A stretch of DNA of 64,000 bases from Asticcacaulis machinosus (GTDB lineage Bacteria > Pseudomonadota > Alphaproteobacteria > Caulobacterales > Caulobacteraceae), in assembly GCF_028550435.1 (NCBI RefSeq), contig NZ_JAQQKV010000001.1, positions 1,612,001 to 1,676,000 of the forward strand, given 5' to 3'. Shown in pieces: positions 50,822-55,677 of the stretch. Position 1 is the stretch's first letter, and each line of letters opens with the position of its first letter. The notes below the pieces were generated by a model, which did no database searches, was not told where the DNA came from, and saw nothing but the letters and a program-made list of their open reading frames with translations. Made by a program: the position numbers and the translations under genes.

Positions 50822-52168
50822 ATGTTTGAATTTGGTCGCGAACTAAGACGTATTTTCGGCAATCAGGGCCGGTTTGAATCGGACTCCAGTTTGTACGAAT
50901 TATTGAACCTTGAACTGCTGATCTCTCAGGGCCGCAGCCTTGATATTGAGGCCGGCCGCGTCTCGACCAAAAATCGCTTTGATCCCCATATCGAATCCGC
51001 CACCATCTGGCGCGAATACGCCCGCAGAACCGGCGACCCGCTGGCGATGCGCAAAGCCGCCGCCGCCGCTGAATCTGCCGGTAAGGACGCCAAAACCATC
51101 GCTCAGGCCGTGCAGGCCGTGCTGGAGCAGGCCCTGACCTGCCTGACTGGCGCCGACCTGTTTGAAACCGCAGAATTATTGACCTCCGCCGAAGGGCTGC
51201 TGGCCGAAGGGCGCGTCGCGGTGGCGGGCATCAGCCCCGCCGACCCGGTACTTAACGCGCGCCTGTCGCTGGTCGAAGGGATGCTGGGGGCGCGCCTTGC
51301 TCTGCGCGAAGGCGTGGGCGAACTTGATGCAGCACTGAACGCTATGGCTCATATCGATCGTGCCGTCGAAAAGTTCGACAAACAGGTCCGCCTGACCAAA
51401 ACCAACCGCGACAAGATCTGGGCCGCTCAGGCGCGTCTGGAGCGGGCCGATCTTTTGATGGCGGTCGGTATCGATCGTCAGGACTCAAGCCTTATGGGCG
51501 CGGTGATCAAGGACCTTGAGGCCGTGCGCGCCCGTCTGGATTCGGCCTATGAACCGGTGACCTTTGCCACCATCGTCACCCGCCTGGCCGAAGCGCACAT
51601 CCATCAGGGCCAGATCGAAGGCAATGCCGAAGCCGTCTCGATCGGCATCGCCCTGCTCAGTTCCGAAGACGAACTGATGGTCTATGAACACAGCCCGCTC
51701 GATTGGGTCTGCCACAAAATGGCCCTGTCGTGCGGCCTTGAGGTGCTGGCGACCCTGACCGGCGCTGACTATATTTTCGATAAGGCGCTGGCCGTCTATG
51801 ACTTGGCGCTTAAGCGACCGCTGCAAAAGGGCTTAGGCATACGGGCGCGGTTGATGAGCCTGCGGGCCTCATGCCTGGCGCAGCGTGCCGAAGCCACCGG
51901 TGATCTTAAGTCGCTCGATGATGCCGAGCGGGCGTTTAAGGAACAACTGCGCGCCACCCGTCCGCTCGAAGACCCGGTTGACTGGGCGATCCTTCAGACC
52001 AATCTGGGCAAGCTTTATGTCACGCGCGGCGACATCACCGGCTTTATGCTGGAGCGGGCCTCAGCCGCCTATGCCCTTGATGCCGCAAAGGAAATCTTCC
52101 TTGAACATGGCCTGCACAGCCTTGCCGCCACGGCAGAGGGCCATCTGGTGCGCCTGCGGGGGATTTAA
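50822..52168 (+). CDS. unknown protein with TPR-like helical repeats
   Basis: 448 residues with GAGGGG 6 bases before the ATG. No signal peptide or membrane segment. The chain is almost wholly alpha-helical with repeating Ala/Leu-rich helix pairs, and conserved-looking segments such as WAAQARLERADLLMAVG and LKSLDDAERAFKEQL, suggesting a TPR-like solenoid. I recognise no family. It lies between the cupin-like and ThuA-like genes in the same direction, so it may belong to a transcript with one of them. Confidence 0.8.
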   Translation: MFEFGRELRRIFGNQGRFESDSSLYELLNLELLISQGRSLDIEAGRVSTKNRFDPHIESATIWREYARRTGDPLAMRKAAAAAESAGKDAKTIAQAVQAVLEQALTCLTGADLFETAELLTSAEGLLAEGRVAVAGISPADPVLNARLSLVEGMLGARLALREGVGELDAALNAMAHIDRAVEKFDKQVRLTKTNRDKIWAAQARLERADLLMAVGIDRQDSSLMGAVIKDLEAVRARLDSAYEPVTFATIVTRLAEAHIHQGQIEGNAEAVSIGIALLSSEDELMVYEHSPLDWVCHKMALSCGLEVLATLTGADYIFDKALAVYDLALKRPLQKGLGIRARLMSLRASCLAQRAEATGDLKSLDDAERAFKEQLRATRPLEDPVDWAILQTNLGKLYVTRGDITGFMLERASAAYALDAAKEIFLEHGLHSLAATAEGHLVRLRGI

Positions 52169-52239
52169 AAGACAGCGCGTGACAAACGATCAAATCAAGG
52201 GAACACTGCGGTAAAAGCAGCAACCTTTGAGAGATAGCG

Positions 52240-53007
52240 ATGCAGCGCAGGGCGATATTATCAGGCATGGCGGCGGCAATCATGGCGCCAAAGGCCGTGT
52301 GGGCGGACACGCAGTTCAAGGTGCTGGTGATCGGCATGCCCAGCAAATACCACTACGAATATGTGCCCGTTGCCCGCGAAAGCCTAGAGCGGATGGCGAG
52401 GCTGCACGCCTTTGAGGTGGTGTGGAGCCACAATGCCTATGTTCTGGATCAGGATTTGAAGCCCTTTGCGGCCATCATGCTGCTCAACACCCCGACCGAG
52501 GATTTATCGGCCGATCATCGCGCCAAGTTCGAGGCCTATGTGCGCGCAGGCGGCCATGTCATGGTGGTTCACAGGGCGGCGATTGCCCTGCCGGCCGATA
52601 GCTGGCCGTGGTATGAAAAACTGGTTGGGCGCACGGTGGGTGTGCATCCCATGCTGCAAACCGGCGTGGTGACAGTGGTCGACAAAAGCTTTCCCGCGAC
52701 CTTTGGATTGCCGCAGCGCTGGATCTGGAGCGATGAGTTCTACACCACCACCAACCCGCACAATGTAAAGATTACGCCGGTGCTGAACGTCGATGAAACC
52801 AGCTATGACCCGACCAAGATCTGGCCCGGTCAAGTCGTCAAAGGCATGGGCAAGGACCACCCGATCGCCTGGTATCACAGCTATGAAGGGGCGCGCGTGT
52901 TTGTGACGACCTTGGGCCATAATGTCGAGATGTACCGCGACCCGCAGTATCTCAGCCACCTGCTGGGCGGCCTCTACTGGACCGCCACGGGCCGCGGGCG
53001 GGGGTAG
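52240..53007 (+). CDS. ThuA-like domain protein, exported
   Basis: 255 residues with an N-terminal leader (MQRRAILSGMAAAIMAPKAVWA). The class I glutamine-amidotransferase-like ThuA fold is indicated by FKVLVIGMPSKYHYEY, the segment AGGHVMVVHRAAIALP, HPMLQTGVVTV and, near the end, GARVFVTTLGHNVEMYRDP. ThuA proteins occur with trehalose and other sugar catabolic genes, and some act on 3-keto-glycosides. Its Cys nucleophile, typical of true amidotransferases, is absent, as in the family. A periplasmic role on a sugar derivative suits the setting. Confidence 0.85.
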   Translation: MQRRAILSGMAAAIMAPKAVWADTQFKVLVIGMPSKYHYEYVPVARESLERMARLHAFEVVWSHNAYVLDQDLKPFAAIMLLNTPTEDLSADHRAKFEAYVRAGGHVMVVHRAAIALPADSWPWYEKLVGRTVGVHPMLQTGVVTVVDKSFPATFGLPQRWIWSDEFYTTTNPHNVKITPVLNVDETSYDPTKIWPGQVVKGMGKDHPIAWYHSYEGARVFVTTLGHNVEMYRDPQYLSHLLGGLYWTATGRGRG

Positions 53008-53099
53008 TAAGTTCGCATACCTAAAAGCTTTATCGTGGTACCCATCAAGCACTTAACTTTTGCCTTAATAAAGAACAACAGCTCAAAGAGTTCGGTCAT

Positions 53100-54710
53100 A
53101 TGTTTATAAAAAAAATTCGCCTGAAGAACGGTTACAAGCGTTTTCATGACCTAACCATTGATCTAGGCGAAAACCCTGCTCGTATCGTCGCATTAGTGGG
53201 ACCAAATGGTTGTGGTAAGAGTAGCGTTCTAGATGGTTTGCTATATCACGCTAGTGCGCGCCAGCGTATTGGTGGTGGCATTGCTCGAGATGTAAGTTAC
53301 CACTCAATGACAGGTGTCGGTTCGCTAACATGGCAGGATGTAGAAATCCAATTTACCGCCGGAAATTTTTCTGAAATCCGCGCTCTAAAGGAGAAAACTG
53401 GGAAAGCTAATACCATTTTCTCATTTCGTAGTCCTTACCGTTATAATAGCCTACTCAAAATCACAGAAACCAAAGCGGTATCTGAAATTTGGAAGAACTC
53501 CTACGGCGCAGGCGATGCCTCAAGTCTCGACGCTAAGATGGAAGATAATTATAGAAGATTATACTCGGTGTATAATCTATATCGTGATGAAAATGATTTA
53601 AAACCTAGTGAGGCGAAGGCCAAAATAATTGGCGATCTCAATACGTCCATTAAGAAGTGTCTTGATCTAGAGATTTCCAACCTTGGAAATGTCGAAGGTA
53701 ATCAAGGGACGCTTTATTTTAGAAAACCAGACCATCCAAAAGAGTTTGAATTTAACGTCCTGTCCTCCGGGGAAAAGGAGGTTGTTGACCTACTGCTTGA
53801 TTTGTATCTCCGCAAAGAGGACTATTCTGACACTGTTTTTCTTATTGATGAGCCAGAACTTCACATAAACACCGCTATTCAAGGCAACCTACTTGAAGAG
53901 ATTGACCGACTTATTGGGCCTGATTGCCAAATATGGCTCACAACCCATAGCATCGGATTTCTCCGCGCGTTACAGACGAAAATGAAAGATAAATGCCAGA
54001 TCATTCAATTTCGCTCTGAGTACAATCTCGCCGCTGAGGCTCATACGCTGACACCAGTTAAAGTCGGGCCGGGTACTTGGCGGGACTTATTTGCAATTGC
54101 TTTAGATGATCTGGCACACCTAGTTAGTCCCTCGACCATAATTTATTGCGAAGGAAGAGCCGAACCCGGTTCGGGAGGTCGAGAACAAGGTATGGATGCG
54201 CGAGTGTTCAACCGCATTTTCGCTGAATCACACCCTGACGCCCTCTTTACATCTAGCGGTGGGAATACCGAACCTGACCAGCGTAGTGCAATCGCCCTAC
54301 TTGTCCTGAGTAAGGTATTTCCCAAAGTGGACATCTGGGTGCTTAAAGATCGAGATATGGCATCTGGAAAGCCAACGGACGAAAACGACCGCAGAGTTTA
54401 TCTTAATACAAATCCGGACAATCACCGGGTACTTAAACGGTGGGAAATTGAGAATTATCTCTATGATAAAGAGGTATTGAAGGCATATTGCGCAGGTAAG
54501 GGGCTGCAATTTGATGAAGCCGCTTACGATGCCTTCGTTACCAATATAGACGATCAAAATCTAAAGGATGAAACGCAGCGGATAAAGAATTTTTGCGGCA
54601 TAAAAAGCAGCATTAATGCGGAAGTTTTCAAGATTGCATTGTCCGATTATATAATTTCATCAATGGTTGTGTTCAAAGAACTTGAAGAGTGCATATTTTC
54701 TAGGCAATAA
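53100..54710 (+). CDS. ABC-type ATPase fused to TOPRIM/DUF4435-like domain, OLD/PARIS-like
   Basis: 536 residues. The ATPase half has Walker A GPNGCGKS (34-41), the signature LSSGEKE (221-227), Walker B VFLIDEPEL (246-254) and His switch TTHS (281-284), with a helical insertion (about 115-200). The C-terminal half reads IIYCEG (Glu351), SSGGNTEPD, VLKDRD (416-419) and WEIENYL (448-454), the pattern of the TOPRIM or DUF4435 domains of OLD nucleases and PARIS defence proteins. Base composition differs sharply from neighbours: two 60-base lines I counted have 33% and 48% GC against 65% in one line of the ThuA gene. AGA, ATA and TTA codons are frequent. A horizontally acquired, single-gene defence nuclease is my inference. 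No mobility gene or partner is nearby. Confidence 0.8.
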   Translation: MFIKKIRLKNGYKRFHDLTIDLGENPARIVALVGPNGCGKSSVLDGLLYHASARQRIGGGIARDVSYHSMTGVGSLTWQDVEIQFTAGNFSEIRALKEKTGKANTIFSFRSPYRYNSLLKITETKAVSEIWKNSYGAGDASSLDAKMEDNYRRLYSVYNLYRDENDLKPSEAKAKIIGDLNTSIKKCLDLEISNLGNVEGNQGTLYFRKPDHPKEFEFNVLSSGEKEVVDLLLDLYLRKEDYSDTVFLIDEPELHINTAIQGNLLEEIDRLIGPDCQIWLTTHSIGFLRALQTKMKDKCQIIQFRSEYNLAAEAHTLTPVKVGPGTWRDLFAIALDDLAHLVSPSTIIYCEGRAEPGSGGREQGMDARVFNRIFAESHPDALFTSSGGNTEPDQRSAIALLVLSKVFPKVDIWVLKDRDMASGKPTDENDRRVYLNTNPDNHRVLKRWEIENYLYDKEVLKAYCAGKGLQFDEAAYDAFVTNIDDQNLKDETQRIKNFCGIKSSINAEVFKIALSDYIISSMVVFKELEECIFSRQ

Positions 54711-54789
54711 CGCCGCCTCCCAAATCCCCATAGCCATGCCCGTCAAAACCACGTAACCTCATCTGAAAACCGCCACAGGAGAGGCCGCC

Positions 54790-55677
54790 ATGACCGATGA
54801 GACGCCGCCGTTTAAGCGCGAAGTGCTCCAGCTTTTTGACCAGTATGTGCACGGCCTCATCAGCCGGCGGGGCTTTTTAGAAGGAGCGGCGAAATATACC
54901 GCAGGCGCTGCCGGGGCGGTGGCGACCCTGACCGCCCTGTCACCCGATTTCGCTCGCGCCCAGACCGCTGCCGATGACAGCCGCCTTACAACCACCCGCG
55001 TCGATATAGCGTCTCCCGACGGCAATGGCACCATCAAGGCTTATCTGATCAAGCCCGCCAAGATCAAAACCAAGCTGCCGGTTGTGGTGGTCGTCCATGA
55101 AAACCGTGGGCTTAATCCGCACATCGAAGACATTGCGCGGCGGGTAGCCCTCGACGGCTATATTGCGCTGGCGCCCGATGCCCTGACGACGCTGGGCGGT
55201 TATCCCGGCAATGAAGACGATGCCCGCGCCCTGTTCCAGAAACTGGATCAACCCAAGACTCGCAATGACTTTGTCGCCGCCGCAGACTATGCCCGCACCT
55301 TAACCAACAGCACCGGCAAAGTCGGCGTGGTCGGGTTCTGCTACGGCGGGGCGATTGCCAACCTATTGGCCACGCGCATCCCCACGCTCAAAGCCGCCGT
55401 ACCGTTTTACGGATCGCCCGCCCCTCTGGCCGATGTACCGAACATCAAGGCCGAACTGCTGGTGCACATGGGCGGCAATGATGCCCGCGTCAATGCCACT
55501 TGGCCGGACTATGAGGCCGCGCTCAAGGCCGCCGGTGTGCGCTATGAAGCCTATATCTACGACAATGCCGAGCATGGCTTCAACAACGACACCACCCCGC
55601 GCTTTAAACCCGATGCCGCCAAGCTGGCGTGGGAGCGGACGATGTCGCTGTTTGCGCGGACGCTGAAAGGGGCCTGA
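54790..55677 (+). CDS. dienelactone-hydrolase-family protein, Tat-exported
   Basis: 295 residues. After about 20 cytoplasmic-looking residues comes a twin-arginine leader (SRRGFLEGAAKYTAG). The DLH alpha/beta-hydrolase core has VVVHENRGLNPHIED, the nucleophile Cys in VGVVGFCYGGAIANL, an Asp in HMGGNDARV and the His in NAEHGFNNDT. Dienelactone hydrolases open lactones or esters; exported members of this YghX-like group have no firm substrate. AGGAG precedes the ATG. Its stop directly abuts that of the convergent GH43 gene. Confidence 0.9.
   Translation: MTDETPPFKREVLQLFDQYVHGLISRRGFLEGAAKYTAGAAGAVATLTALSPDFARAQTAADDSRLTTTRVDIASPDGNGTIKAYLIKPAKIKTKLPVVVVVHENRGLNPHIEDIARRVALDGYIALAPDALTTLGGYPGNEDDARALFQKLDQPKTRNDFVAAADYARTLTNSTGKVGVVGFCYGGAIANLLATRIPTLKAAVPFYGSPAPLADVPNIKAELLVHMGGNDARVNATWPDYEAALKAAGVRYEAYIYDNAEHGFNNDTTPRFKPDAAKLAWERTMSLFARTLKGA

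Follow-up and report, generated by a model that had tools for sequence, protein, structure and literature searches.

A one-gene ATPase-TOPRIM cassette in Asticcacaulis machinosus, a candidate divergent fused PARIS-type anti-phage system

In the PARIS anti-phage system (PMC12409363, PMC11455837), a hexamer of the ATPase AriA sequesters the effector AriB until a phage protein such as Ocr frees it, and the freed AriB dimerises and cuts tRNA. Single-gene fusions were reported together with PARIS, and were detected there by separate profiles built from fused proteins (PMC9122126). Here we describe a gene of comparable layout from Asticcacaulis machinosus. The window, by which we mean the whole 64,000-nucleotide stretch of DNA analysed (contig NZ_JAQQKV010000001.1, positions 1,612,001 to 1,676,000), contains at 53100-54710 on its plus strand a gene for a protein of 536 amino acids (aa) that joins an ABC ATPase to a C-terminal TOPRIM domain. 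We propose, with a probability of about 0.6, that this is a horizontally acquired single-gene anti-phage cassette of a divergent fused PARIS (AriA-AriB) type, a TOPRIM nuclease held by a PARIS-like ATPase.

The protein shares with fused PARIS (AAA_15/AAA_21 plus DUF4435; AriAB) the number and order of domains, the single gene, the length (536 aa, compared with 533-562 aa in the 12 fused proteins used here) and an AriB-type TOPRIM domain with CEG, DRD and EN motifs. The two-gene PARIS of E. coli differs in that the window protein is one chain from which an AriB could not be released without cleavage, and its effector part has 225 residues or fewer compared with 306 in the AriB chain. Class 1 OLD nucleases (P2 Old, TsOLD) are likewise single-gene ABC ATPase-TOPRIM proteins, and the window gene shares with them the lack of a helicase or retron partner.

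The open reading frame (ORF) lies exactly where the first-pass annotation had placed it, and the motifs read there from the translation are all present. The ATPase domain (residues 1-300, 53100-53999) contains the Walker A motif GPNGCGKS (residues 34-41, 53199-53222), the ABC signature LSSGEKE (221-227, 53760-53780) and the Walker B motif VFLIDEPEL with its catalytic glutamate (246-254, 53835-53861). The AriB-like TOPRIM effector domain, which is indeed short, comprises residues 343-535 (54126-54704). It holds Glu351 within CEG (54150-54152), the position at which TOPRIM domains carry a catalytic glutamate; KDRD (416-419, 54345-54356) within VLKDRD (414-419), with the expected metal-binding pair D417/D419 aligning with the DRD of fused PARIS; and EIENYL (449-454, 54444-54461) within WEIENYL (448-454), the counterpart of the vEN motif of fused DUF4435 proteins. 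All these features are on the plus strand. When the protein was aligned with 32 of its 39 family loci, 25 of 29 individually checked positions were invariant in all 33 sequences, the other four being S223 (27/33) and H283, G352 and D417 (32/33 each). Residues G34, N36, G37, G39, K40 and S41 of Walker A, D250 and E251 of Walker B, and Glu351, D419, E449, E451, N452 and Y453 of the effector domain each occur in 33/33. The acids expected to be catalytic in a PARIS-type scheme are conserved in the family. Variation gathers instead at residues 46-105 (53235-53414), where column identity is 0.50 compared with 0.71 overall; none of 2000 permutations, which ignored correlation between neighbouring columns, yielded a 60-residue stretch as low. 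This segment is a candidate trigger-sensing surface.

The first-pass annotation had recognised the layout of either an OLD nuclease or fused PARIS, and our comparisons uphold that layout and sharpen it to PARIS. The C-terminal domain aligns motif by motif with the C-termini of fused AAA-DUF4435 proteins, and the profile comparison between them gave 93%, with 0 of 50 column-shuffled controls coming near; the default cut at residue 250, applied to the majority of these 12 proteins, falls short of the precise ATPase end, and the matched stretch lies beyond that cut. The corresponding figure for an OLD TOPRIM profile was 3.6%, which led us to reject OLD TOPRIM as the nearest kin of the domain. That profile was built from 15 OLD-like loci in 12 genomes of the order, with about 13 rows carrying the result (L102 was cut at the wrong place, and L111 and L114 look identical in the part compared). 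The Pfam OLD-like TOPRIM family PF20469 had no match in the window protein and none in its own genome at E up to 1e-8. In the structural comparison, AriB was the top match of the C-terminal model; searching the PDB sequences with a profile of this domain returned nothing meaningful. The best PADLOC match of the whole protein is the fused AriAB profile PDLC02981 (100.5 bits, E 2.4e-29), which outscores PtuA and which may differ from the profile used in PMC9122126. For the ATPase part, the expected Pfam families were found with 73.2 bits (AAA_21) and 53.9 bits (AAA_15), both above the Pfam cut-offs, and the AAA_15 and AAA_21 scores also exceed the fused-PARIS cut-offs of PMC9122126 (32 and 27 bits). 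A viral structure search yielded generic ATPase matches only.

The composition of the gene is foreign-looking, as had been noticed at first pass. Its G+C content (GC) is 0.433, and no other stretch of 1.6 kb in the window is as rich in AT: the lowest two of 1248 sliding segments of 1611 bp start at 53051 and 53101, and correspond to the gene itself, and the lowest segment not overlapping it has a GC of 0.519. Codon use, judged by GC at third codon positions, is deviant as well (0.40, compared with 0.78 and 0.73 in the two flanking genes and 0.70 in an upstream gene of 448 aa). The same tendency extends to the family: in 38 of 38 loci the gene has a lower GC than the DNA on either side, the difference ranging from 0.009 to 0.276.

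The flanking genes, named ThuA-like (52240-53007, plus strand) and dienelactone-hydrolase-like (54790-55677, plus strand) in the first-pass annotation, delimit a site with exchangeable cargo. Among 25 genomes of the genus, the hydrolase was found in 18 (E up to 1e-60) and ThuA in 13 (E up to 1e-30), and by position the two occur as a pair in five genomes, that of the window and four sisters (G005, G013, G017 and G020). The sister genes are 95-96% (ThuA) and 91-93% (hydrolase) identical to those of the window. By blastn, homology to the four sister loci (L063-L066) breaks off at 53007-53008, where ThuA has its stop codon, and is regained at 54722-54727; the inserted cassette, at 53009-54721, is not shared with any of them and is tighter than the first reading could see. 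The AriAB-like gene is its only long gene. The gap holds four kinds of cargo in the five genomes: in G005 a DUF4411 gene and an ImmA/IrrE-type (Peptidase_M78) gene on the minus strand; in G013 a TIR protein, the antitoxin TacA1 and a 181-aa protein that has no Pfam match and that we take, from its position, to be the GNAT toxin; and in G017 and G020 a HEAT-repeat protein with a pair resembling the TacA pair of G013. One representative of each of these cargo genes was scanned in Pfam. In PADLOC the TIR protein scored 131 bits to PDC-S66 and 82 bits to ThsB. The search of the 25 genomes for a truly empty site revealed none, the four relatives with this gene pair carrying other cargo in the gap, which is a reservation to our reading. 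No tRNA was found in the 64-kb window, in agreement with the first-pass annotation, and the two edges of the cassette share no exact direct repeat longer than 8 bp. As the edges lack a tRNA and a long repeat and the cassette carries just the one long gene, the cargo is most simply explained as having been exchanged by homologous recombination in the flanking genes. A mobile element as carrier was rejected, no relative having been found on viral contigs or in phage records; among plasmids there was one relative, at 33% (Zymomonas). A second variable slot is located one gene upstream, with about 1.7 kb between the 448-aa gene and ThuA in G020 and G017 (L065, 6631-8347; L066, 11387-13114) at a place homologous to 52168-52240 of the window, where it measures 71 bp; in L065 the best piece matched only residues 186-448 of the 448-aa protein.

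The 39 family loci were found by one scan with six short patterns in a genome collection covering 84,980 species. Those outside the alignment are L038 (match beginning at residue 5; omitted by choice), L050 (truncated at a contig end), L060 (matched over residues 337-533 only), L039 (interrupted by an internal stop), L051 and L059 (matched in two frames) and L062 (36% over an ATPase piece). The 32 aligned relatives are 45-83% identical to the window protein, and they bear eight phylum labels: Pseudomonadota, Bacteroidota, Bacillota, Chlorobiota, Cyanobacteriota, Fibrobacterota, Ignavibacteriota and Candidatus Electryoneota. The partial match L060 comes from a record of Candidatus Methanovirga, presumably an archaeon. 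In the tree, in which 14 of 31 inner branches are open, a supported set of seven rows groups the window protein with records of Rhizobium, Rhodobacteraceae, Aureimonas, Nitratireductor and Brevundimonas, the last being nearest to it (83%); the family member at L024 is from Brevundimonas guildfordensis. The gene is patchy, unlike a housekeeping gene: with the best three candidates per genome scored, it was found in 4 of 398 genomes of the order including its own, one of the four with an internal stop, and in 3 of 398 genomes of the phylum, namely its own and two distant ones. Internal stops or two-frame matches occur in some family copies or more distant kin (L039, L051, L059, L023, L100), and such broken copies would fit a gene that is costly and dispensable. 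Judged from the listings of an open-licence library, there is no paper on the subfamily.

The first-pass suggestion of a stand-alone system is supported by the 38 loci without a recurrent neighbour: among 186 neighbouring ORFs (home-made calls, up to three per side) none was found to travel with the gene, and similar neighbours were common to only two pairs of loci (L034/L036 and L048/L049). We picked 115 neighbours by length and nearness and scanned 108 of them. The 25 most frequent families listed comprise assorted chromosomal genes, a small number of defence genes and phage integrase, with 2 matches to type I restriction enzymes, 1-2 to Cas1 models, 1 each to Cas7 and Cas4 and 2 to phage integrase. 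The Cas1, Cas4 and Cas7 models matched near family members (among L024-L061) are of subtype I-C type. Ten proteins, six of them neighbours, were scanned singly; a protein with a viperin-type match (pVip, 85 bits in PADLOC) was encountered at L037 (5896-7215), two ORFs upstream of a family member in a Chlorobiaceae bin.

The most likely function, in our analysis, is that of a self-contained sensor and effector which would be triggered by a phage protein and arrest growth through a nuclease, probably a tRNase. The N-terminal ATPase would bind ATP, form an oligomer and keep the TOPRIM nuclease idle. It may sense a protein made by the phage, perhaps an anti-restriction protein and possibly through the variable residues 46-105. 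A rearrangement would then allow TOPRIM domains of neighbouring chains to pair and to cut nucleic acid, most likely host tRNA, so that translation and growth would halt ahead of phage maturation. With sensor and effector in one chain, activation would proceed by rearrangement in cis or by proteolysis and not by release of an AriB.

Several observations weigh against this interpretation. Pfam DUF4435 (PF14491) did not match the C-terminal part at E up to 10, and among 33 relatives it gave a single match, which at E 0.031 fell below the cut-off; the window protein therefore does not reach the 27 bits or more set for DUF4435 membership, and of the DUF4435-like assignment made at first pass the match to the fused-protein profile stood and that to Pfam DUF4435 did not. 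In PADLOC the C-terminus alone matched neither AriAB nor AriB. With hhalign it scored 0.4% against six two-gene AriB sequences alone, and two-gene AriB was rejected as a direct profile match; the AriB link derives from the fused proteins, the PADLOC profiles and the fold. The ATPase part appears generic, with profile comparisons of 99.34% to OLD ATPase, 99.25% to fused PARIS and 97.9% to AriA, and PtuA heads its fold listing; AriA was not among the 50 matches listed for the whole-model fold comparison, which rules nothing out. The family is also unlike fused PARIS in being a tight one of its own (mean column identity 67%), and conservation this strong, which one would not usually find in a gene facing phages, could indicate a different role. 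Finally, only the TIR protein was matched among the four sister-cassette proteins submitted to PADLOC (the other three being the DUF4411, 181-aa and HEAT-repeat proteins).

These points bear on three other explanations. The gene could encode an OLD-type nuclease of Class 1, in which case a single ATPase-TOPRIM protein would act alone and would degrade DNA instead of tRNA. The ATPase profiles would accommodate it, but the low OLD figure for the effector domain compared with that for fused DUF4435, the missing PF20469 match, the lower structural Z (6.3 for TsOLD, 6p74) and the pairing of IENYL with fused DUF4435 proteins make it unlikely. The prominence of PtuA might instead reflect a Septu/PtuA-like ATPase with a swapped effector and an unlinked partner, such as an HNH protein or a retron, elsewhere in the genome. 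The listed PtuA matches, however, are concentrated on residues 1-340, an AriB-like effector domain is part of the same chain, the cassette has neither PtuB (HNH) nor a reverse transcriptase, and both the partnerless loci and the higher AriAB score speak against this explanation, which we consider very improbable.

A role other than defence, either as an addiction-type module stabilising the cassette or as a cell-cycle or DNA-repair ATPase, would agree with the conservation of the family and with the TacA antitoxin, DUF4411 and ImmA/IrrE-type genes that occupy the same gap in the sisters. One report describes Cran1, an OLD protein of an archaeon, as being essential to progress through the cell cycle, and the TOPRIM domain of an E. 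coli OLD protein as dispensable for its phage phenotype (PMC13261556). On these descriptions domain content does not settle mechanism, and that of Cran1 makes us slightly less confident in a fused PARIS-type defence cassette and slightly more inclined to a non-defence role. Nevertheless, no antitoxin gene accompanies the window gene, one sister cassette has a TIR protein resembling ThsB, and the gene is distributed unlike a housekeeping gene, and we regard a non-defence role as rather improbable.

Fused PARIS has already been published, and under the PARIS-type reading the window protein is a divergent fused-PARIS branch that misses the DUF4435 cut-off. We also speculate, tentatively, that it may represent a distinct class of one-protein immunity, in which an AriB-like tRNase would never be released and a trigger acting at residues 46-105 would drive the in-cis pairing of tethered TOPRIM domains; such proteins, partnerless and highly conserved across phyla, might move, as a cassette of nothing but the one gene, into the intergenic slots occupied in sister strains by TIR or toxin-antitoxin-type cassettes.

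The ThuA-hydrolase gap is a small cassette site without an integrase or a tRNA, and it could be mined for further cassettes. In the published PARIS mechanism AriB has to leave AriA, a step closed to a fused protein unless it is cleaved. With its compact 536 aa and its relatives under eight phylum labels, the protein described here offers a practical test of whether a fused AriAB works without release of the effector.
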